Assembly (NCBI GenBank): GCA_005884765.1
Contig: VAZV01000132.1
Span: 124,001 to 188,000, forward strand
DNA from: Alphaproteobacteria bacterium
GTDB taxonomy: Bacteria; Pseudomonadota; Alphaproteobacteria; Rhizobiales; Xanthobacteraceae
Length of the DNA stretch: 64,000 bases
Direction: 5' to 3'
Below, piece after piece: positions 19,293 to 31,447 of this stretch. Below the pieces are notes generated by a model. That model was not told the DNA's origin and searched no databases. It saw only the letters and a list, made by a program, of their open reading frames with translations. Positions within the stretch are counted from its first letter, which is position 1. Each line of letters opens with the position of its first letter. Position numbers and translations under genes: made by a program.

Positions 19293-19365
19293 CCGTAGCC
19301 AGCACGCACCCTTGCGCCCCTTTGCATTTTCCGGTAACATTTCCGGAAATAAGGAGCTTGCGACA

Positions 19366-19650
19366 ATGGCCAATAAAGCAAAATCCCCCCTCCGAAATCA
19401 CCGTGCGCGCATGGAGCGCCGGGGTTTCGTGCGGGTTGAGGTCAACGTCCGCAAGGAAGACGCGAGCCTTGTTCGCCGTGTTGCTTCTGCCTTATCCGAT
19501 CCCTCGCGCCAAGCCGAGGCGCGCAAGATTCTTCGACAACGTTTTGCCGAGCCGCCCAAGGTGAGTCTGAAGACGCTACTTGCATCCGCGCCGCTCGACG
19601 GGATCGATCTCGACCGCAGCCGCGAGTTTGGTCGTGAAGTCGATCTGTGA
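19366..19650 (+). CDS. Antitoxin-like partner of the downstream PIN toxin
   Basis: The 94-residue basic protein starts 'MANKAKSPLRNHRARMERRG'. It has a short strand 'FVRVEVNVRKEDASLVRRVA' suggestive of a ribbon-helix-helix DNA-binding element, and a C-terminal tail that would bind the toxin. ATG 19366 follows 'aaggagcttgcgaca'. Its stop overlaps the GTG start of the PIN gene by 4 nt. Position and size identify it as the antitoxin; the family name is uncertain. Confidence 0.82.
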   Translation: MANKAKSPLRNHRARMERRGFVRVEVNVRKEDASLVRRVASALSDPSRQAEARKILRQRFAEPPKVSLKTLLASAPLDGIDLDRSREFGREVDL

Positions 19651-20081
19651 GCTACCTGATCGATACGAACATCATTTCCGAGGTCCGAAAGGGCTCCCGT
19701 TGCGACGCACATGTGTCCGCCTGGTACGCGTCTATCGCTGACGAGGATATCTTTCTGAGCACGCTTGTCCTTGGTGAAATCCGCAAGGGTGTTGAACTTG
19801 CACGCGCGCGGGATTCCGGCAAGGCAGCGGCGCTCGAAAGCTGGTTGCAAGAGGTAGAGGCCGCGTTCGACGGGCGCGTGCTTGGCATCGACAACGCTGT
19901 GTCCGATCAATGGGGCCGCATGAGCGCCATTAGACCTGTCCCGGCTATCGATGGCCTGCTCGCGGCGACTGCACTAACCCATGGCTTGATCCTGGCGACA
20001 CGCAATGATCGCGATGTCGCCGGCCTAGGCGCAACAGTGCTCAATCCGTTTAGATTCGCCGAGAATCATCACCGATCGTAA
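19647..20081 (+). CDS. PIN-domain toxin (VapC/FitB-like)
   Basis: A 144-residue intact PIN ribonuclease: 'SYLIDTNIISEVRKGSR' (Asp6 and the Glu), 'STLVLGEIRKGVELAR' (central Glu), 'PAIDGLLAATA' and 'ATRNDRDVAGLG'. The GTG start overlaps the antitoxin stop. The 'IISEVRKG' and 'LGEIRKG' forms are nearest to FitB-type VapC. All acidic active-site positions are present, unlike the decayed vapC 700 nt upstream. Confidence 0.9.
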   Translation: MSYLIDTNIISEVRKGSRCDAHVSAWYASIADEDIFLSTLVLGEIRKGVELARARDSGKAAALESWLQEVEAAFDGRVLGIDNAVSDQWGRMSAIRPVPAIDGLLAATALTHGLILATRNDRDVAGLGATVLNPFRFAENHHRS

Positions 20082-20145: not shown

Positions 20146-20239
20146 TGGCGGAGACGGAGGGATTCGAACCCTCGATAGGGCTTTACAACCCTATAACGGT
20201 TTAGCAAACCGCCGCCTTCAGCCACTCGGCCACGTCTCC
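20146..20239 (-). tRNA. tRNA-Ser (anticodon GCU)
   Basis: A complete class II tRNA on the minus strand. The acceptor stem is 'ggagacg'/'cgtctcc'; 'tggctgaaggc' lies in the D arm, the anticodon loop reads 'ttgctaa' in a 'cggtt/aaccg' stem, the variable arm is long, and 'ggttcgaatcc' forms the T arm. CCA is encoded. The long variable arm and anticodon GCU assign it to Ser (AGC/AGU codons). Confidence 0.97.
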
Positions 20240-20956
20240 AACACGGCCGATATGCCTGACGTGGCGGCGGCCCGCAAGCGGCGATTCTGTGCGCCTTAAC
20301 GCGCACGGCGCGGTCGGCTACTCCGGGTTTTACCGGTGCTCTCACTCTCAACGCTTGCCCACCCCCCTGCGTCGCAAGGCATGCGATCGCTCACACGGCG
20401 TATCGAATCTCAAAATCCTCCTGCACAACCCAACTGCGCCGGGAACCGGCATCATTGTCATGCAATGAGTCGCGCTATTTGCCGGCTCGTCGGCGGTATT
20501 GCGGGCGTGATGGAATCGCTGCGCCGCTTGTTCGATTCGCGACGTGTCGAGTGCGCGAAGGAGAAAACCTGCCGGACAAGCTGCCTGCGCAGTGATCTCG
20601 GGGGCAAATGCAGCAAATCAATAATACCGTTGTATAACAATACGTTGCGAGGAAAGCCCGGTCACGCCTGCGTGCTATTTGTGCAACACCCTTCCAAAAA
20701 CGCCTCGGCGCGCATCGCGTGAAGCGGTTCCTTTATTGCGTGTACATGGACCTTCGGTAATTGTGATGTTGCGACGGAGGGGGGCATCCCGAGGTCGTCC
20801 CGTTTTTAGGTGGTTCGCTTAAGTCCCTCGCGTTCATGCGGGAGTGTCCGAAGGCGCGAAGCGGCTAAGCGGTGTTTGGGGACAAGGGAACCAACCTTAG
20901 GGTACTTCACCCAGCGGATCCGGAACCTTCCCTTTAGAGCAACTTGGAGGTTTAAC
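20240..20956. other. Intergenic stretch upstream of the porin
   Basis: No supported gene in 717 nt. An unconvincing 128-codon frame (20336-20722) has neither ribosome site nor family similarity. The last 200 nt presumably hold the porin promoter and leader. No tRNA fragment that could mark an attachment site was seen. Confidence 0.5.
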
Positions 20957-22573
20957 ATGAAGATGGTTAAGAGCCTACTTCTCGGCTCAGCGGCGGGTTT
21001 ACTCGCCATGGGCGGAGCACAGGCGGCCGATCTTCCCGTAAAGGCCAAAGCGGTCGAATACGTGAGGATCTGCTCTCTGTATGGTGCCGGATTCTTCTAC
21101 ATTCCGGGTACCGATACTTGCATCAAGCTGGGTGGTTATCTGCGCGCCGACCTGACGATCAACGGCGGTATCTACGACGGCCCGTTCTGGAACGGTGAAG
21201 GCGGCATCCGCGACCGGTATGCGAACTTCTACAACGACCGTTCGCGTTTGGCGCTGACCATCGATACCCGCACCGCGACGGAATACGGCGTTGTCCGCAC
21301 CTTCGGCCAGGCCGACTTCCAGTTCTCGAGCTTCGGTTCGACCAGCAGCATCGGCGTTGCCGCGAGCGTCAACCCCGGTGCAACGCAGGGCCAAGTCAAC
21401 AACGACACGGCAGGCAACGGCTACGTCGCGGTTGAATTTGCGTTCGTCCAGTTCGCAGGTTTCACCTTCGGTAAGTCCGCTTCGGCCTACGCCACGCCGT
21501 GGCATGGCTATCCGGGCAACAACACCTCGTTCCTGACCGGCACTTACGACTCCGTCACTGGTATCAACAACATCCAGTACACCTGGCAGTTCGGTAACGG
21601 TGTGTCGGCGACGTTGGGTATCGACGAGAGTGGCGCCCAGGCCTTCAATCGCACGCAGATCATCAACGCGGTCGGAACTGGGCAGCTTGGGAATACCGTG
21701 CTCGGAGCTTCTGGTGGTAATATCGGCTTCAGCGGTGCGGCGAGCTCGTTCATCACCGGTGTTGGCACGGCGTACGGCGGCAACAGCGTTCCCGACTTTG
21801 TCGGCAATGTGAGGGTCGATCAGGCTTGGGGTCTGTTCCAGATTTCGGGCGCGATCCACGACAACCATGCCGGATACTTCACCAACGCCAACGATGTCGG
21901 AACGACGTTCAACAACGGCCAGAACCAGGCTGGCGCTGTGAACTTCGGCCATCCCGACGACAAATACGGCGGGGCCGTGATGGCGGCGTTGCAGATCAAG
22001 AACATCCCGACCGGTGCCGGCGACGACATCAAGATGTCAGGGTCCTGGTCGTTGGGTGCATCGCATTACGTCCTGGGCACCAGCTCGCCGGATCCGTCTT
22101 CGTTCGACATCTATAAGGGCACCAGGTTCGCCATGGGCGTCGTGACGGACTCGATCTACTCGGGCACCAGCGTATCCAATGGCAACGTTGCGACGCAGCT
22201 GCAACTGACCCGCGGTTGGGGCTTCCAGGGTGCGTTCAACCACAACTGGGATCCCTACTGGTCGACCAGCTTGTTCGGCGGCATCGCCGGGCTGAGCTAC
22301 AACCAGACTGCTAAGCAGTTGTACTGCAACACCTACGTGGCCAATGCCGGTATCGCCGTTCGCGGCGGCGGCGTGACCTCCGGCGGTGGCACCGGCGGTG
22401 TCTTCGGCGCAGGTTCGATTTGCGATCCGGGCTTTACGATCTCCGAAATCGGCCTGGTCACTCGCTGGACCCCGGTCAAGAACCTGACGTTCAGCGCCGA
22501 AGTGCTGTACGCCTACCTGAAGACCAATATGTCGGGTACGATCACCGGCGCGCCAACAGCACGACTTCGCTGA
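20957..22573 (+). CDS. Outer-membrane porin (Porin_2 family) with frameshifted C-terminus
   Basis: The 538-residue precursor has a signal peptide 'MKMVKSLLLGSAAGLLAMGG...AQA' and then 'ADLPVKAKAVEYVRICSLYG', the standard opening of rhizobial trimeric porins. Alternating beta-strand sequence fills the rest. ATG 20957 follows 'ttggagg'. The frame ends '...SGTITGAPTARLR'. The correct last strand ('STTSLNLRVQRNF', with the terminal Phe needed for outer-membrane assembly) is present just downstream but in another frame. Compared with the partial copy at 27 kb, 46 nt net are missing here. The protein may be poorly assembled, or the site may be a sequencing or assembly error. Confidence 0.9.
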   Translation: MKMVKSLLLGSAAGLLAMGGAQAADLPVKAKAVEYVRICSLYGAGFFYIPGTDTCIKLGGYLRADLTINGGIYDGPFWNGEGGIRDRYANFYNDRSRLALTIDTRTATEYGVVRTFGQADFQFSSFGSTSSIGVAASVNPGATQGQVNNDTAGNGYVAVEFAFVQFAGFTFGKSASAYATPWHGYPGNNTSFLTGTYDSVTGINNIQYTWQFGNGVSATLGIDESGAQAFNRTQIINAVGTGQLGNTVLGASGGNIGFSGAASSFITGVGTAYGGNSVPDFVGNVRVDQAWGLFQISGAIHDNHAGYFTNANDVGTTFNNGQNQAGAVNFGHPDDKYGGAVMAALQIKNIPTGAGDDIKMSGSWSLGASHYVLGTSSPDPSSFDIYKGTRFAMGVVTDSIYSGTSVSNGNVATQLQLTRGWGFQGAFNHNWDPYWSTSLFGGIAGLSYNQTAKQLYCNTYVANAGIAVRGGGVTSGGGTGGVFGAGSICDPGFTISEIGLVTRWTPVKNLTFSAEVLYAYLKTNMSGTITGAPTARLR

Positions 22574-22593
22574 ACCTGCGCGTTCAGCGCAAC
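22022..22593 (+). repeat. Porin 3' segment, repeat copy 1
   Basis: The last third of the porin gene is repeated in direct orientation at 26923-27541 with high identity, including silent positions. The copies differ by a 46-nt net gap near the end and by scattered substitutions. They bracket the GH1 remnant and two serine hydrolase genes. Confidence 0.88.
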
Positions 22594-22629
22594 TTCTGAT
22601 CCCGATCGTTTAACGACGATCCAAGCGAA

Positions 22630-22658
22630 CCCCCGGCGGGAAACCACCGGGGGTTTTT
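22630..22658 (+). terminator. Rho-independent terminator of the porin gene
   Basis: Stem 'cccccgg'/'ccggggg' with a 10-nt loop, followed by five T. It lies 56 nt after the frameshifted stop and 35 nt after the stop of the undisturbed frame. Confidence 0.92.
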
Positions 22659-22682
22659 CTTTGAGCGGCCCTTGATAGCTAG

Positions 22683-23923
22683 ACCCATACGCATGGGACG
22701 ATCTCCGATCACAGCAACGCCGACACCGCGACCGACCATTATCATCTTTACAGGGAAGACGTTCAGTTGATGAAGGCACTGGGCGCAAAGGCCTATCGGT
22801 TTTCGATTGCCTGGCCGCGTGTCTTCCCTGAGGGTGCCGGCACACCAAAGCCAAAGGGCCTCGATTTCTACGACCGGCTGCTGGATGAGCTGTTGGCGAA
22901 CGGCATCGAGCCCTTTGCGACGCTGTATCATTGGGACCTGCCCGAAGCGCTTCAGGATCGCTTCGGCGGCTGGACCTCCCGCGACACCTCGAAGGCCTTT
23001 GCGGACCATGCAGCCCATGTCGCGACGCATTTGAGCGACCGCGTAAACCACTTTTTCACCATCAACGAATGCTCCAGGCACGTACACCTCGGTCACGGAG
23101 AAGGCGCCGATGCCCCCGGTCTCAAATTATCCAGGTCGGGACAAAATCAGGTTCGTCACAACATCGCGCTGGGACACGGTCTTGCGGTGCAGGCGATCCG
23201 GGCGCACGCAAAGGCCGGCACCAAAGTCGGTCCGGCTGAGAATGCCGTGAGCTGTATTCCCGCCGTTGAAACACCGGCAAACATCCGCGCCGCCGAGATC
23301 GCGACGCGTGAACTCAATGCCGGTTATCTGACCCTGATGCTGGAGGGGAAATATACCGATGCATATCTTGCCCAAGCCGGCAACGATGCGCCGAAATATG
23401 CGGCCGAAGATTTGCGCATCATTTCGTCGCCGATCGATTTTGTCGGGCTGAATGTTTACACGCCCGACCATTACGTGGTTGCAGCCGACAACGAACGCGG
23501 CTTCACGCTCGCGCCGTTTCCCGCATCGTTTCCGCACATGAAGGCGGGCTGGCTACGGCCCGGCCCCGAGGCGATCTACTGGGTGCCGCGCCACGTCGCG
23601 CGAAACTGTGGAACGTGAAATCGATCTATATCACCGAGAATGGAACGTCGGGGAGCGACCAGCCGGCCGCGGACGGCACCGTCTATGACGTGGATCGTAT
23701 CATGTACCTGCGCAATTATTTGACGCAGTTGCAGCGCGCGACCGCCGACGGCGTGCCCGTGCTTGGGCATTTTCTGTGGGGCCTGATGGACAATTTTGAA
23801 TGGGCCGATGGATACGAACAGCGCTTTGGCCTGTACCACGTCGATTTCGCCACCAAGCGCCGTACCCCCAAGCTGAGCGCATCGTTCTATCGGGAGACGA
23901 TCGCGCGAAACGCGGTGGCGTGA
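22683..23923 (+). pseudogene. GH1 beta-glucosidase, truncated and frameshifted
   Basis: The reading frame begins without a start codon at 'THTHGTISDHSNADTATDHY', equivalent to about residue 55 of a GH1 enzyme, so the N-terminal catalytic-barrel start is missing. It continues through 'GAKAYRFSIAWPRVFPEG' and the acid/base region 'FFTINE', whose following segment is degenerate. A one-base loss near 23605 shifts to a second frame that carries the nucleophile motif 'YITENG' and 'HFLWGLMDNFEWADGY' and ends 'ETIARNAVA'. The two parts together make a clear GH1 beta-glucosidase, now inactive. Confidence 0.9.
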
Positions 23924-23934
23924 TACGGAATTCG

Positions 23935-25233
23935 TCAATCCTTGCGCTGGCCCTTGCCCAGCGCCTCAAACATCATCGTCTTCAGCGTCAGTTGAATCCG
24001 TCCACCCTGGGTGTGGGACATCACCATGAAGATACCGAACATGTCGTCCACGGGATCGACAAAATAGAAGCTGCCGCCGGCGCCGTCCCAGCGATACTCG
24101 CCGAGCGGCCAGGTGGTGCCCGGCGGTGGCGAGGTGCGGACGGCAAAGCCAAGACCGAAGCCGCTGGTCGGGCCCGGAAAATAGAAGGGGTCATGGATGA
24201 TCCCGGTCTCCGGCCCGATTTGATCCGACGTCATCAGCGCGACGGTCTCGGGCTTGAGGTACCACTTGCCGTCCAGCTTGCCTCCGTTCAGTAGCATTTG
24301 CAGGAAGCGGGCGTAGTCCCCAATCGTCGAGACCAGGCCCGAGCCGCCGGATTCCCAGCGCCGCGGCAATGTCGGATCCCTGACTCCGGCCACTCGGAAG
24401 CGGTCGACAGGAAATGGCTTGGCGATGCGCGGCCACTTCACTTGATCCGCGACGTAATACGCGGTCTCGGACATGCCGAGCGGATCGAACAGTCTCTGCT
24501 TTTCGAATTGAAACAGCGTCTGCCCCGAGGCCACCTCCACGACACGGCCGAGCACGTCGGTTGAATGACTGTAATTCCAGCGCGTCCCGGGCTGGTCGGC
24601 GAGCGGCAGTACCGCAATCCGGTCGGCGAATTCGGCGTTATCGAAATCGCCTGCGTACAATTGGGGATTGGCATAGAGTTTCGTCACCGCCGCCTCGCCG
24701 AAGAAGCCGTAAGTGATACCCGACGTGTGCCGCAGCAGATCCCTGATCGTGATGGGGCGCTTCAACGGCTCGAGCTTGAGCGGATATTTTCCCGCTTCAT
24801 CGGAAAGATCGACGCCGACTTTGGCATCGGCAAAGGAGTGAATGTACTTCGATACGGGACCGTCGAGGGCCAGCTTGCCGTCGTCGACCAGCATCATCGC
24901 GGCGACCGAGGTGACGGCCTTTGACATCGAATAAATCTGGAAAATCGTGTCCGGCGTCATCGGTTGCCCGGTGTCGGGGTCCCGCACGCCGAAATTTTCA
25001 AAATAGACCGGCTTGCCGTGCTGCTGGATCAACAGAATGGCGCCGGGAATCTTGCCGGTCGCGACTTCGTTGCGAACCTCGTCGCCGATACGGTCAAGCG
25101 CCGCGCGTGAGAAGGTTGGCGCGTTCGGCGCTTTCGGCTCGGCTCGCACCGCGTTCAGCCGACCGGCGGCCAGGAGAATGGCCAGGACAACAAGGTAGCG
25201 CCCTGCGGCGCCGTTAGTTCTCCATCGCTTCAT
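23935..25233 (-). CDS. Serine hydrolase, beta-lactamase class C/esterase family (second of tandem pair)
   Basis: The 432-residue protein has an N-terminal signal peptide (hydrophobic residues about 13-28). The catalytic 'SMSK' is at 102-105, a Tyr motif 'YSHS' lies near 215, and a third-motif-like 'DGAGGSF' is C-terminal. This fold includes class C beta-lactamases, D,D-peptidases and esterases (EstB-like); the 'Y-x-H' in place of 'Y-x-N' argues for esterase rather than penicillinase. It overlaps the start of its neighbour's 3' end by 20 nt, so the two are cotranscribed. It converges on the GH1 remnant. Confidence 0.88.
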   Translation of the reverse strand: MKRWRTNGAAGRYLVVLAILLAAGRLNAVRAEPKAPNAPTFSRAALDRIGDEVRNEVATGKIPGAILLIQQHGKPVYFENFGVRDPDTGQPMTPDTIFQIYSMSKAVTSVAAMMLVDDGKLALDGPVSKYIHSFADAKVGVDLSDEAGKYPLKLEPLKRPITIRDLLRHTSGITYGFFGEAAVTKLYANPQLYAGDFDNAEFADRIAVLPLADQPGTRWNYSHSTDVLGRVVEVASGQTLFQFEKQRLFDPLGMSETAYYVADQVKWPRIAKPFPVDRFRVAGVRDPTLPRRWESGGSGLVSTIGDYARFLQMLLNGGKLDGKWYLKPETVALMTSDQIGPETGIIHDPFYFPGPTSGFGLGFAVRTSPPPGTTWPLGEYRWDGAGGSFYFVDPVDDMFGIFMVMSHTQGGRIQLTLKTMMFEALGKGQRKD

Positions 25234-26497
25234 AGACGAGCTGCTTCAGGGTTCGCTGGACGCGCTGACGCTCCGAAGGTGTCTGCTCCAGTATCACGAA
25301 GAACATGTCCTGCTTGCGGTCGACCACCAAATAGCAGCCGCTGGCGCCGTCCCATTTCAGTTCGCCCAGCGATCCCGGCGGCGGCGGCTTGGCGTTACCG
25401 GGATCGGTGCGCACGGCAAACCCAAGCCCCATGCCGAAGCCGTCACCGGGAAAATAGAAATAATCCCGCTCGACACCGGAGCCCTTGCCGATATGGTCCG
25501 ATGCCATCAGTTCGAACGTCTTCGGGCTGAGATAGGTCTTGCCCTCAAACGTCCCGCCATTGAGCAGCATCTGCGCAAAGCGCGAAAAGTCCGACATGGT
25601 CGAAACCATGCCGCCGCTGGCGGATTCCCACTTCTGGCGAACCTCAGTCCTGTATTCGCGGCCGACCCGGAAATTACTGTCGTTCGGCACCGGCTGGGCG
25701 AGCCGCTGCAGCCTCTCCGGTTCGGTGACGAAGAAGCCGGTGTCGGTCATGCCGAGCGGATCGAGCAGCTTTTCCCGCTCGATCTCGAGCAATGATTTTC
25801 CGGACACGATCTCCATGATCCGTGCCAGGATGTCGGTGGAATGGCCGTATTGCCAGAGCGCTCCCGGCTGGTTGTGCAGCGGCAGCTTGGCGATCCGCTC
25901 GGCGAATTCGGCAAGGTCGAAATCGCCCGAATAGAGATTTGCCGCCGCGTAAGCCTTGCGCACCAGACTGTCGCCATAGAAGCCATAGGTGATGCCGGAG
26001 GTATGACGCATCAGGTCAAGAATGGTGATAGGCCGGGTCAGCGGCACCAGTTCGAGCGTCTTGGTGCCGTCCTCGGCCTTGTTCTCCACACCGACCTTCA
26101 TATTTACGAAGGAGGGAATGTACTTCGAGACGGGATCGTCGAGCTTGATCTTTCCGTCCTGGATCAACTGCATCGCCACAACGGAGGTGATCACCTTGGT
26201 CAGCGACGACAGGCGGAAGATGGTCTTGTCCGTGATCGGCGTCTTGGACACCGCGTCCTGCACGCCGAAGGTCTCGTGATAGACCTCCTTGCCGCGCTGC
26301 CGGATCAGGACATTTGCGCCCGCGATCTTGCCTGTCGCCGCCTCGTTCTTGAAGAACTCGGTTATCTTCGCAAGCTTGTCCTGATTGAAATGCGCTCCGG
26401 CGGGAATATCGAAGGTGCCTTCGGCGTGGACCGGCGGCGCGGCCGCCAGCATCAGCGCGCCACAGGCGAGTGCACGCAGCAACAGATCCGAATTCAT
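25214..26497 (-). CDS. Serine hydrolase, beta-lactamase class C/esterase family (first of tandem pair)
   Basis: A 427-residue paralogue of the downstream gene. The signal peptide is 'MNSDLLLRALACGALMLAAA' with cleavage after 'VHA'. The catalytic 'SLTK' is at 98-101, the 'YGHS' motif in the middle, and 'DGASGCY' near the end. ATG 26497 is preceded by a strong 'ggaggggg' site; the frame continues upstream to 26800 without conservation. Shared blocks such as 'LMRHTSGITYGF' (here) and 'LLRHTSGITYGF' (neighbour) show an old tandem duplication. The substrate is unknown. Confidence 0.9.
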   Translation of the reverse strand: MNSDLLLRALACGALMLAAAPPVHAEGTFDIPAGAHFNQDKLAKITEFFKNEAATGKIAGANVLIRQRGKEVYHETFGVQDAVSKTPITDKTIFRLSSLTKVITSVVAMQLIQDGKIKLDDPVSKYIPSFVNMKVGVENKAEDGTKTLELVPLTRPITILDLMRHTSGITYGFYGDSLVRKAYAAANLYSGDFDLAEFAERIAKLPLHNQPGALWQYGHSTDILARIMEIVSGKSLLEIEREKLLDPLGMTDTGFFVTEPERLQRLAQPVPNDSNFRVGREYRTEVRQKWESASGGMVSTMSDFSRFAQMLLNGGTFEGKTYLSPKTFELMASDHIGKGSGVERDYFYFPGDGFGMGLGFAVRTDPGNAKPPPPGSLGELKWDGASGCYLVVDRKQDMFFVILEQTPSERQRVQRTLKQLVYEAMEN

Positions 26498-26922
26498 TGG
26501 ACCCCCTCCGGAATTCGGAGGGAGTGTAACCCACGCGTCAGTCCGCACAAGGGCTGCCGAAGCGTCCAATACCTCTTCGTGCAGCACGTCTCCCGCGTAA
26601 ACTGCTGTCTCTCCATGGTCCACCTCCTGCTTCATAAAACAACTAACTCGGTATCTTCTGAACCGGGTGCAGATCACAAATGGATTGCACAGGCCGAGCG
26701 TTGGCACGAGCTTGAGCGAGCGCAGGCCTCGTGGCGCAAGCAGAAGAGACCACTTCAGCAGTCGATGCACGCAGGCCCGATGACAACGCAACAGCGCCAA
26801 CTCGGTTAAGGTTTACGCTGCACGGCACCCTTAGATGCGGTTAGCTGATTCCATGCCTTTCCGGGTCGATCCTCTCGAACAGTCGACTTGATCGGCACTG
26901 CGAAGAACTCATTTCCGTTCTC
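26498..26922. other. Intergenic stretch between serine hydrolase and porin fragment
   Basis: 425 nt with no supported gene. It holds the promoter and leader of the minus-strand hydrolase pair. The right end marks the breakpoint where porin homology abruptly begins. Confidence 0.5.
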
Positions 26923-27541
26923 GACGACATCAAGATGTCAGGGTCTTGGTCGTTGGGCGCATCGCATTACGTGTTGGGAACCAGCGCGGCGGATCCGTCT
27001 TCGTTCGACATCTATAAGGGCACCAGGTTCGCCATGGGCGTCGTGATGGGCTCGATCTATTAGGGCCTCAGCACATCCAACGGAAATGGTGTGACGCAGC
27101 TGCAACTGACCCGCGGCTGGGGCTTCCAGGGTGCGTTCAACCACAACTGGGATCCGTACTGGTCATCGAGCTTGTTCGGCGGCATCGCCGGGCTCAGCTA
27201 CAACCAGACCTCCAAGCAGCTCTACTGCAACACCTACGTGGCCAACGCTGGCGTCGCCATTCGCGGCGGCAGCGTGACCTCCGGCGGTGGCACCGGCGGT
27301 ACCTTCGGCGCGGGTTCGATTTGCGATCCGGGCTTTACGATCTCCGAAATCGGCCTGGTCACTCGCTGGACTCCGGTCAAGAATCTGACGTTCAGCGCCG
27401 AAGTGCTGTACGCCTACCTGAAGACCAATATGTCGGGCACGATCACCAGTACGCCGTCTTCGGCTCTGCTGCTGGCCGCCACGACCTATAACTTCGGCAA
27501 CAACAGCACGACTTCACTGAACCTGCGCGTTCAGCGCAACT
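26923..27541 (+). pseudogene. Porin fragment (copy 2 of the repeat)
   Basis: Homologous to the last third of the porin upstream, starting in the middle of a strand ('DDIKMSGSWSLGASHYVLG') with no start codon. An in-frame TAG occurs at 27061-27063 ('GSIY*GLST'). After the final strand 'TSLNLRVQRN' the homology stops one residue before the expected terminal Phe, and unrelated sequence follows to a stop at 27585. It cannot yield a porin. Confidence 0.92.
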
Positions 27542-27581
27542 CGTTGCGCCATACGAACGCGAGCCTCGGAAGGAGCGGCAA

Positions 27582-28019
27582 ATGACCAGGCTTGGGATGA
27601 TTATGCTCTGCTCCCTGCCTGTGCTGGCAACCTCCGCCGCAGCCGACAATCTGATTGAGCCGGGGGAATGGAAGGCAACTGCAACTACCGCCGTGAACGG
27701 CGCAGCCACGCCGCCGCAGGCCAAGGCGCGCTGCCTCACGCCAGATCAGGTGGCCGACGTTACCAAGACGTTTGGGCCAGTATCCCGCACCGTCAACTCG
27801 ACCTGCGAACAACCGGAATATGAGAGGACCGGGCGAACCCTGAAATGGCGCCTGCAATGCCGGGGCCAGCTTGATGTGGATGTCACCGGCAATTTCAACT
27901 TCGACACTCCGCTACACTACACGGCGACCATCACCTCCAAGAGCCGGATGGCGGGTTCATTGATCAGCAACGTGAAGACGGAATTGGAAGGTGAACGGGT
28001 CAGCGACTGTCAGCAGTGA
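27582..28019 (+). CDS. DUF3617 family exported protein
   Basis: A 145-residue protein with a signal peptide 'MTRLGMIMLCSLPVLATSAA'. It has the DUF3617 pattern 'IEPGEWKATATT', 'CLTPDQVADVTK', a Cys-rich middle ('STCEQPEYE', 'WRLQCRG') and a final 'VSDCQQ'. Paired cysteines suggest a disulfide-bonded periplasmic protein; the function of the family is unknown. ATG 27582 follows 'ggaaggagcggcaa'. Its promoter region abuts the porin fragment. Confidence 0.88.
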   Translation: MTRLGMIMLCSLPVLATSAAADNLIEPGEWKATATTAVNGAATPPQAKARCLTPDQVADVTKTFGPVSRTVNSTCEQPEYERTGRTLKWRLQCRGQLDVDVTGNFNFDTPLHYTATITSKSRMAGSLISNVKTELEGERVSDCQQ

Positions 28020-28043: not shown

Positions 28044-30353
28044 CTACTCCACGCTGCCGCGGTGCAGGTCCGCCTCGATCTGCAGCCGCGTTCCGCCGCC
28101 GAACCGCGCGCGATAGACCTGCAGGTTCTCCATGATCCGCTGCACGTAGTTGCGGGTCTCTGCGAACGGAATGAGCTCCACCCAATCGACCGCGTCGACC
28201 TTGGGATCGCGCGGATCGCCGTAGCGGTCGATCCATTTCTTGACGCTGCCGCGGCCGGCATTATAGGCGGCAAAGGTCATGATGTAGGAGCCGCGGTAGT
28301 CCTCGAGCAGGCCACCGAGCTCGGCAGCCCCCAGCGCGACGTTGTAGACCACGTCCGTCTTCATCCGGGCGAGATCAAAGCCGACGCCGGCCCGCTTGCA
28401 GACGTAGCGGCCCGCATCCGGCGTCACCTGCATCAACCCGTAAGCCTGCGCCGCCGAGACGTCGGCTGGATTGAACGCGCTCTCCTGCCGCGCGATCGAG
28501 AAGATGACGCTCTTTTCGACTTCGGGTCCGATCGCCCTAAAGGGCGGAATGCCGGTCACCGGATAGGCGTAGAAATCGAACGGCAATCCGCGATTGAGCG
28601 CAGCCTTGCCGACGAGCAGCATGCCGCGCGCGTAGCCGTAGCGCGAGGCTACTTCGCCCAAGCCCACCAGCGCATCCGGATCGCCGTTTTCCCCCATATC
28701 GGCAAAGATCGGGATCGCGATGTCGCGCTCGTCGAGATCGAACAGCAACTGCACCGCGCGAACGATCTCGAGCCGTTCGACGCCGCGGACGCGCGCGGTG
28801 GGCGCGTCGTTCAATTCGAGCTGCGGCATCCCGAGCTTGGCGCGCGCCAATTGGCCGTAATAGCTGGTCGATTGTTCCGCCGCCGCGGCGTAGGCGGCGC
28901 GGGCCTCCTGGGAGCGTCCGGCGGCTTCGGCGGCACGGCCCTGCCAGTAACCGGCGCGCGCCAGCGTCGTCGGGTTGACGCTGCCAACGCCGATCCGGGC
29001 GAAATGCTGCGCCGCCAATGCCGGATCGGCGAGGAAACGCAGCGCGATCCAGCCCGCCGTGAATTCCTGCTCGGTCTTGTAGATGTCGCGCGTGGGCAGC
29101 GCCGCGTCGCGTGCGATCAGGTATGCGGTGCGGTGTTCGCCGCTATCGATCATCTTGCGCGCCAGCAGGCGCCGTTCGATCCACCATTCGTCGAGATTGT
29201 AGAGCCGGGCAGGGTCCCTCGGCGCGCTCAGCATGAGCCCCGCTGCCTCCGCGAATTTCTCTTCGCGGCGGAGCAGTTGGATCTTGCTGAAGATATAGCC
29301 GGCGTCGCTATGCAGCTCGTGCGGAACCGCATCGAGCAATGCGCGGGTATTGGGAGCTTTCTTGTAAGCCGCAATCCGTGCCTTCGCCAACGCGACATAG
29401 CCGGCACCGAGCCGTTTTGCAGCGCGCAGGGCGGCTTCGTGCTCGCTGCCATACAGCAACAAGTCCATTCGCGCCTTCTGGTCGCCCGCCGTCAGCAATG
29501 CGCCGAACAGCTCGAGCGCGGCGTTCTCGGTATCCTCCGACATCGCATCGTTGCGCCAGGCTTCGCGCACCAGGCGTTCGGCATTGGTGCGGTCGCCGCG
29601 CGCGAGCATTGCCCGCGCCAGCGCGAAGCGGCCTTTGGCCGACAATGGCGATTCGCTTTCGAACCACGACCATACGACCGCATCCTCGCGGTGGTCGTCC
29701 CACAGCGCCGCCTCGAGGCGGCGGCGCAGGAAGGTCTGCGAAGGCCAGCTTGGATTGGCCGATATGAAGGCGCGGTAGCGCTCGACGCTCGCGTTGTTAT
29801 TGTCGCTGCGCAGGATGATCCACTCCGCAAGCTTCCTTGCGACCGGATCGGATATCGTGGCCTCGATTTGGGTGGCGTCGTCAGGCTTATGTTGGCGGAT
29901 CAGCTCGATGACGTTCTCGATCGCGTCGGTATCGGCCTTCGAGGTCGACGACGTCGCGGCCACCGCGGCTGGCGCCACCTGTTTGCGCAGCGGCAGAGCA
30001 GGGGCCGCGCGCGGGCGGGGCGGCAAAACGGGCGCGATCGCCGGGGCCGGTGTGGGGCCGGGCCCTGTCTCCCTGGCGATGGGGGTCAGGACCGGCGCTG
30101 CCGCCGTTGCCACGGCCGTCATCTTGCCGGGCGTGCTCTTGCTGACGGTGACCCTGTTGGCTGTAGAGTTGGGCACCAAATTGCGTGCGATCGGCCGCGG
30201 TTTTGGCAGGGGAACCTTGGGCTTGGCGGCCCAGGCATTCGTCGCCAGCGCCGATAAACCCACCGCCAGCGTCAGGGTGGTGGCCAAGGCGGTCGATCGC
30301 AACGCGGCTGCGCGGACAAGGCGGTTCACGGCGTTCCTTAGCTTGCGAATCAT
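28044..30353 (-). CDS. slt: Soluble lytic murein transglycosylase (Slt70-like)
   Basis: The 769-residue periplasmic enzyme cleaves the MurNAc-GlcNAc bond of peptidoglycan to a 1,6-anhydro product. It has an N-terminal signal/anchor segment (to about residue 42), a Pro/Ala-rich linker, a long helical superhelix (TPR-like, about 150-560), and a C-terminal goose-lysozyme-type domain. That domain shows 'RQESAFNPADVSAAQAYGLM' with catalytic Glu, 'QVTPDAG' and 'TFAAYNAG'. Divergent from dapA. Confidence 0.95.
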   Translation of the reverse strand: MIRKLRNAVNRLVRAAALRSTALATTLTLAVGLSALATNAWAAKPKVPLPKPRPIARNLVPNSTANRVTVSKSTPGKMTAVATAAAPVLTPIARETGPGPTPAPAIAPVLPPRPRAAPALPLRKQVAPAAVAATSSTSKADTDAIENVIELIRQHKPDDATQIEATISDPVARKLAEWIILRSDNNNASVERYRAFISANPSWPSQTFLRRRLEAALWDDHREDAVVWSWFESESPLSAKGRFALARAMLARGDRTNAERLVREAWRNDAMSEDTENAALELFGALLTAGDQKARMDLLLYGSEHEAALRAAKRLGAGYVALAKARIAAYKKAPNTRALLDAVPHELHSDAGYIFSKIQLLRREEKFAEAAGLMLSAPRDPARLYNLDEWWIERRLLARKMIDSGEHRTAYLIARDAALPTRDIYKTEQEFTAGWIALRFLADPALAAQHFARIGVGSVNPTTLARAGYWQGRAAEAAGRSQEARAAYAAAAEQSTSYYGQLARAKLGMPQLELNDAPTARVRGVERLEIVRAVQLLFDLDERDIAIPIFADMGENGDPDALVGLGEVASRYGYARGMLLVGKAALNRGLPFDFYAYPVTGIPPFRAIGPEVEKSVIFSIARQESAFNPADVSAAQAYGLMQVTPDAGRYVCKRAGVGFDLARMKTDVVYNVALGAAELGGLLEDYRGSYIMTFAAYNAGRGSVKKWIDRYGDPRDPKVDAVDWVELIPFAETRNYVQRIMENLQVYRARFGGGTRLQIEADLHRGSVE

Positions 30354-30556: not shown

Positions 30557-31447
30557 ATGGCAGCCAAGACGAAATTCCGGGGATCCTTCACCGCCTTGGT
30601 CACGCCCTTCAAGAACGGCTCGCTCGACGAAGCGGCCTTCCGGTCGCTCGTGAACTGGCAGATTGCCGAAGGCACCCACGGCCTTGTGCCGGTGGGCACG
30701 ACCGGCGAAAGCCCGACCGTGAGCCACGACGAGCACAAGCGCGTGGTCGAGTGGTGCGTCGAGGAGGCCAAGGGCCGCGTTCCCGTGATCGCAGGTGCCG
30801 GCTCAAACTCGACCAAGGAGGCCATCGATCTGGCCGAGCACGCGGAAAAGGCCGGCGCCGACGCGGTGCTGGTGGTGACGCCCTATTACAACAAGCCGAC
30901 CCAGGAAGGCATGTACCAGCACTTCAAGGCGATCAACGACGCGATCGGTATTCCCATCATCATCTACAACATTCCGCCGCGCTCGGTGATCGACATGTCG
31001 GTTGACACCATGAAGCGATTATTCGAGTTGACGAACATCGCAGGCGTCAAGGACGCGACCGCCAGCATGGTGCGGGTGTCGCAGCAGCGCGCCGCGATGG
31101 GCGAGGATTTCAACCAATTGTCGGGCGAGGACGCCACCGTGCTCGGCTACATGGCGCATGGCGGTCACGGCTGCATCTCGGTAACCTCCAACGTCGCGCC
31201 GCGGCTGTGCTCCGAATTCCATATTGCCTGGCAGAAGGGCGACCTCGCCACGGCGCTGAAGGTGCACGACAAGCTGATGCCGCTGCACACCAATCTGTTC
31301 ATTGAAAGCAATCCCGCGCCGATCAAGTACGCGCTGTCGCTGCTTGGCAAACTGGAAGAGAAGCTGCGCCTGCCGATGGTGCCGGTATCCGAGCCGACGC
31401 GCGTCGCCGTGCGCAGCGCGATGGTGCATGCCGGCCTGATCAATTGA
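30557..31447 (+). CDS. dapA: 4-hydroxy-tetrahydrodipicolinate synthase
   Basis: The 296-residue enzyme condenses pyruvate and aspartate semialdehyde in the lysine/diaminopimelate pathway. Visible features are '[10 protein letters not shown]', the Tyr motif '[16 protein letters not shown]' and the Schiff-base Lys in '[10 protein letters not shown]'. Length is normal. 'ggaggaagtcg' precedes ATG 30557. mscL and smpB follow in the same direction. Confidence 0.98.

Follow-up and report, generated by a model that had tools for sequence, protein, structure and literature searches.

Comparison with described systems

The closest described counterparts of the locus analyzed here are the recombination-driven hotspots reported in 2017 (PMC5635113), which share with it a variable interval between conserved flanks, differing cargo and mosaic divergence. 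Our case differs in being one locus in one genus, outside the statistics of that study, and in having a multi-copy porin as border gene, while some of the long intervals found here carry transposase or recombinase-like genes, as in genome G259. A second parallel is the IS-mediated deletion and duplication in symbiosis islands of Bradyrhizobium, where large changes are flanked by directly oriented pairs of IS copies (PMC8692435). Common to both are the bacterial group and the presence of an IS at the end of a rearrangement, whereas the present locus has a single 87-bp IS end, fused to the leader of the gene hydB in a way that is common to another genome, G176. No paper on this porin-slt interval was found among the matches listed in our literature search.

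Layout of the locus

The window, i.e. the whole stretch of 64,000 nucleotides that was analyzed, lies within contig C115 of a 6.65-Mb draft genome in 312 contigs. Its closest named porin loci belong to Bradyrhizobium, with a best protein identity of 59% in a comparison from which records of the own genome were possibly omitted. From left to right, the locus consists of a tRNA-Ser gene, porin 1, a hairpin, a GH1 gene, the hydrolase genes hydA and hydB, an IS3-type end, a 246-bp piece, a porin tail, a DUF3617 gene, slt and dapA. Since no listed match in relatives spans the junctions, the cassette is found elsewhere in relatives, and GH1 and both porin segments are damaged, we consider it quite likely that the locus is a recombination scar, the product of an ordinary lineage-specific insertion. 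It is not a built system, nor is it a new one. Between two conserved sides, tRNA-Ser-porin and slt-dapA, a 4.0-kb piece of a genus-wide GH1/esterase cassette would have been taken in, accompanied by fragments of mobile DNA.

The initial annotation had described a direct repeat of the last third of the porin, bracketing a 4.3-kb segment, and this was confirmed by repeat search and alignment. About 4.26 kb of DNA separate the nearly full porin 1 (20957–22573, plus strand, PF02530) from the copy of the porin end (26922–27541, plus strand). The repeat search paired positions 22021–22320 with 26922–27221 (90% over 300 bp without gaps, spacing 4901) and positions 22554–22594 with 27501–27541 (98%, spacing 4947); a loss of 46 bp close to the end of porin 1 accounts for the difference of 46 between the two spacings. 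The 620-bp porin tail and porin 1 align over 574 shared columns with 91.8% identity, which is far above chance. The abrupt start of porin homology was also borne out, with its position corrected from 26923 to 26922.

Behind porin 1, the former porin 3' end and a terminator-like hairpin (22574–22663, plus strand) are conserved in relatives and form the left junction. Porin and terminator homology stops at 22662–22663, and beyond 17–20 bp of unmatched filler (22664–22683) BLAST homology to intact GH1 starts at 22684, in agreement with the truncated GH1 gene that had been described as starting abruptly behind the porin terminator. The hairpin, with its run of U, has a folding z-score of -2.84; it is missing from the list of a consensus terminator scan, and a promoter and terminator scan gave counts close to those of shuffled sequence. 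On the right-hand side the porin tail is joined at 27541 to the leader of the DUF3617 gene (27582–28019, plus strand, recognized by a family match), which is followed by the conserved right border, the lytic transglycosylase gene slt (28044–30353, minus strand, recognized by a family match and in relatives), and by dapA, which begins at 30557.

As for the tRNA-Ser(gct) gene (20146–20239, minus strand), next to which the rearranged block had been placed, the adjacency stands, but only as that of a left neighbor, with no duplicate of its 3' end elsewhere in the window. Its vicinity could suggest that an element integrated site-specifically at tRNA-Ser. This is very improbable and, by the absent second tRNA end, largely refuted: a search of the 64-kb window with a 25-base pattern of the tRNA 3' end, allowing up to 3 mismatches, gave no second copy, the insert lies 5' of the tRNA gene, and no integrase was found among the three insert genes scanned.

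Also beside tRNA-Ser, at 19312–20081, are a PIN-domain toxin-like gene (PF01850) and a small upstream gene. Among 29 stretches compared, some of them from other loci, the PIN gene occurs only in G006 (L069).

Genes and origin of the insert

The first gene of the insert is a GH1 beta-glucosidase pseudogene (22684–23923, plus strand; PF00232, E 8.7e-64). Its counterpart in G176, the nearest genome compared, is an open frame of 482 codons that scores above the cut-off for TIGR03356 (GH1 beta-glucosidase), and relative to this frame about 85 first codons are absent and the reading frame is broken near 23.6 kb. The two serine hydrolases recognized in the initial annotation, hydA (23935–25233) and hydB (25214–26497), both on the minus strand, are indeed both members of PF00144, as indicated by full-length domain matches and solved relatives; almost full-length matches to PDB 4ivi were obtained for hydB (E 3.7e-136) and hydA (E 2.2e-133), while no NCBIfam equivalog reached the cut-off for either. 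We take the carboxylesterases represented by PDB 4ivi and 4ivk to be family VIII. With these, hydA and hydB share the near-full-length match and PF00144, and they differ from them in forming two adjoining paralogues beside GH1. Both are open frames that differ by about 1% from G176. For hydA the dN/dS against G176 is 0.26, and hydB, with 2 synonymous and 9 non-synonymous changes, on its own gives no sign of constraint. The pair may, as far as the reading frames tell, still be functional.

Positions 22684–26672 match contig C311 of G176 with 98.5% identity, C311 not being the contig that carries the porin in that genome. With the five best candidates scored per genome, the cassette could be aligned almost end to end, at 85–87%, in at least five of 35 genomes of the same genus. 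In G176, the gene ahead of GH1 encodes a 628-aa product that matches GH17 weakly (29.5 bits against a cut-off of 28.2), and a GH17-like gene adjoins the cassette genes in seven out of eight further loci compared with G176; it is lacking in the G259 stretch, and the cassette genes are more widely spaced in G177 and G132. This neighbor is absent from the window insert, the closest match to it within the own genome (67%) being located elsewhere, and for the rest of the cassette the own genome gave distant matches only, with no GH1 head at high identity. Because the GH17-like neighbor and the GH1 start are missing here and present in relatives, the insert is, judging from these comparisons, a cut piece of a genus cassette that resides elsewhere in relatives and has been placed here. 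Its left cut would fall inside GH1, the remainder of which would have been joined to the porin terminator. No donor molecule for the insert was found.

Two features at the right-hand side had been omitted from the initial annotation, namely the IS3-type end (26590–26676, minus strand) and the 246-bp piece (26677–26922). The IS3-type end, 87 bp in length, presumably comprises the terminal repeat and the start of orfA. The full element measures about 1.24 kb and is multi-copy in G259; NF033516 identifies the large ORF of the element as an IS3 family transposase. Both the window and G176 have the hydB leader fused to the IS3-type end, with the sequences diverging beyond the IS tip, so the IS end may be older than the insertion. 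On this side, the last third of a porin would have become attached to the IS3 remnant of the cassette and the 246-bp piece. A plasmid search matched the IS end alone, in four records: the match on a plasmid of Bradyrhizobium sp. Ash2021 (NZ_CP100605.1) is annotated as an IS3 family transposase, and among the matches of about 80% on Candidatus Manganitrophus plasmids two are annotated as Tn3 family transposase and one is unannotated.

A composite transposon, with IS copies at both ends, was considered and rejected, the 87-bp end being single and on the right side only. The 246-bp piece matches one place in G025 with 94% identity (C1:5206495–5206744), with partial matches of 78–80% at G025:C1:7523901–7524029 and G000:C37:50162–50277. 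The ORF overlapping it in G025 belongs to no family in NCBIfam, and an RNA element was rejected after a search of Rfam, with E values up to 1 allowed, had given no match.

State and history of the porin copies

A porin query matched three places in the own genome, and no orphan porin head was among them. The initial annotation had proposed to look for two full porin genes; at this locus, porin 1 is nearly full, and the second copy is only a 3' third. Porin 1, the tail and a third porin on contig C86 have pairwise identities of 91.8, 90.3 and 89.2%. The 46-bp loss in porin 1, relative to both the tail copy and C86, causes a frame shift, whereby the C-terminal stretch and the final Phe, present in C86, are lost. 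The tail copy is interrupted by an in-frame TAG and continues into the DUF3617 leader without a stop and terminator of its own. Loss of the last strand keeps a porin from assembling, and the porin segments at this locus probably make no normal porin. The C86 porin, situated at another locus, is a whole, undamaged and close copy, and can presumably stand in for the damaged ones.

With a 312-contig draft and three similar porins, it could be argued that C115 is an assembly artefact in which unlinked pieces were joined via similar porin ends, and chimeric joins or stray contigs are possible both in this draft and in that of G176 (620 contigs, 3% contamination). We hold such an artefact to be improbable, as the porin copies differ by 8–11%, both foreign junctions connect porin to non-porin DNA rather than to another porin copy, and the outer flanks are both the expected neighbors.

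The porin at the tRNA-Ser locus of G176 (L207, 8255–9810) lacks about 142 bp and is frame-shifted as well. The porins of this locus are consequently broken in both genomes as assembled.

Identity to G176 changes in steps along the locus: it is 95% around the tRNA and porin head, drops to 79% over the remaining porin, and amounts to 81% for DUF3617 and 97–98% for slt. Correspondingly, dS against this single genome was 0.007–0.05 for the cassette, 0.08 for the end of slt adjoining DUF3617 (198 codons) and 0.72 for DUF3617 itself. In either our own genome or G176, the stretch from the porin interior to slt thus probably has a history different from that of the DNA on both sides; the same picture would result from a stray contig in the draft of G176.

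A porin tree was built with 41 rows from 34 hand-picked loci and the window. Six genomes contributed porins from two loci, and in three of these the porins grouped by genome, with support of 93/89 (under the star limit) for the trio of the own genome, 100/97 for the G252 pair and 100/98 for the dw_78 pair; two genomes, G177 and G132, kept the types apart, and the tree did not settle the placement in one MAG. The tandem pairs grouped by genome in two out of five cases (URHD0069 and one MAG), those of B. jicamae and B. lablabi did not, and one was left without clear placement. The G252b porin has the gene context of C86. This points to an exchange between porin copies in a subset of the group, the own genome included.

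The porin-slt interval in relatives

The usual order in relatives is porin, optionally DUF3617, slt and dapA. To describe the interval we used 43 porin-slt loci, distinct by slt 3' sequence and taken from best hits to slt or porin, which makes them no random sample; porins were counted at 35% identity or more inside the fetched stretch, and for a further nine out of 52 distinct slt loci, two of them G176 contigs, the stretch contained no porin, so that they were excluded. The interval measures at most 2 kb in 35 of the 43 loci and between 2.5 and 11.3 kb in the other eight, so that conserved flanks are indeed combined with variable cargo. In G252, tRNA-Ser is followed, after other genes, by one porin and then by DUF3617 and slt. 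G176 has tRNA-Ser, one deletion-bearing porin and DUF3617 on contig C446, and slt on other contigs, with other neighbors.

The comparison with relatives called for in the initial annotation revealed the same arrangement in no other genome among the matches listed. Both junctions were queried against 265 genomes of the genus, the own one included, with the two best candidates scored per genome, and none of the matches listed in other genomes spanned a junction, all being one-sided. What had been proposed as an event between two porin copies stands as regards the insertion, since in relatives DUF3617/slt come after the porin and the cassette resides at other places, and falls short as regards two full tandem porins, since a single crossover with DNA containing a porin end only gives the same structure. 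We infer recombination among similar porin copies, either a tandem pair or an incoming porin end, combined with end joining, and the order of events likewise. The two versions are detailed forms of the recombination scar and share its likelihood between them.

According to the first version, the cassette replaced DNA of a tandem pair, beginning directly behind porin 1 and reaching into porin 2 over two thirds of its length. Two full copies are plausible because two porins precede slt in five of the 43 loci, namely those of B. jicamae, B. lablabi (in which one porin is split into two matches), URHD0069 and two MAGs, with spacings of 275 to 375 bp in the MAGs and 3.4 kb in URHD0069. The likeness between tail and porin 1, which about equals the likeness of either to C86, also fits this version. 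Against it, G176 and G252, the nearest compared genomes with this porin type, have one porin there, and we would put replacement in a tandem pair at somewhat short of an even chance.

The second version, in which an incoming porin 3' end with the cassette recombined by a single crossover with the sole resident porin, predicts the order that was found, i.e. full porin, cargo, porin tail. A comparable configuration exists in the same interval of G031 (L076, 3581–9815), next to the porin, where the cargo is bracketed by slt and a 256-bp copy, 89% identical, of the slt 3' end. In the family scan this cargo consisted of two sulfatases, a HAD hydrolase and an FGE-type enzyme. Among the matches listed, however, a porin end beside GH1 occurs in no other genome, and a search for a switch point (crossover) along the aligned porin copies gave no signal. 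The single crossover is hence a tentative reading, rather on the unlikely side.

Whichever version of the recombination scar is preferred, we take the window as a putative further case of recombination at the porin-slt interval. It is conceivable, if doubtful, that this interval in Bradyrhizobium is a capture site, where cargo would recombine via the 3' end of a border gene (porin or slt) and leave a duplication of that end behind. The cases behind this are two, the porin tail here and the slt tail in G031, with G033 lacking cargo. At the level of single bases, the locus shows how a multi-copy outer-membrane gene family may serve as a landing place for foreign cassettes and be damaged in the process. 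What could be extended is the finding of duplicated gene ends on either side of cargo in this interval across the genus; if it is true for the genus as a whole, the end-duplication footprint would be a simple marker of cargo gain in such intervals.

Cargo families were scanned in G031, G259 and G176, and other loci were seen as ORFs only. In G033 (L082, 5412–5573), a second slt 3' end lies beside slt, with 55 bp identical and no intervening cargo. An FGE-type gene is found near slt in G176 (C546, L219, 4859–5848), and the region near slt in G259 (L221, 6598–10266) contains a sulfatase and a Mutator-type transposase.
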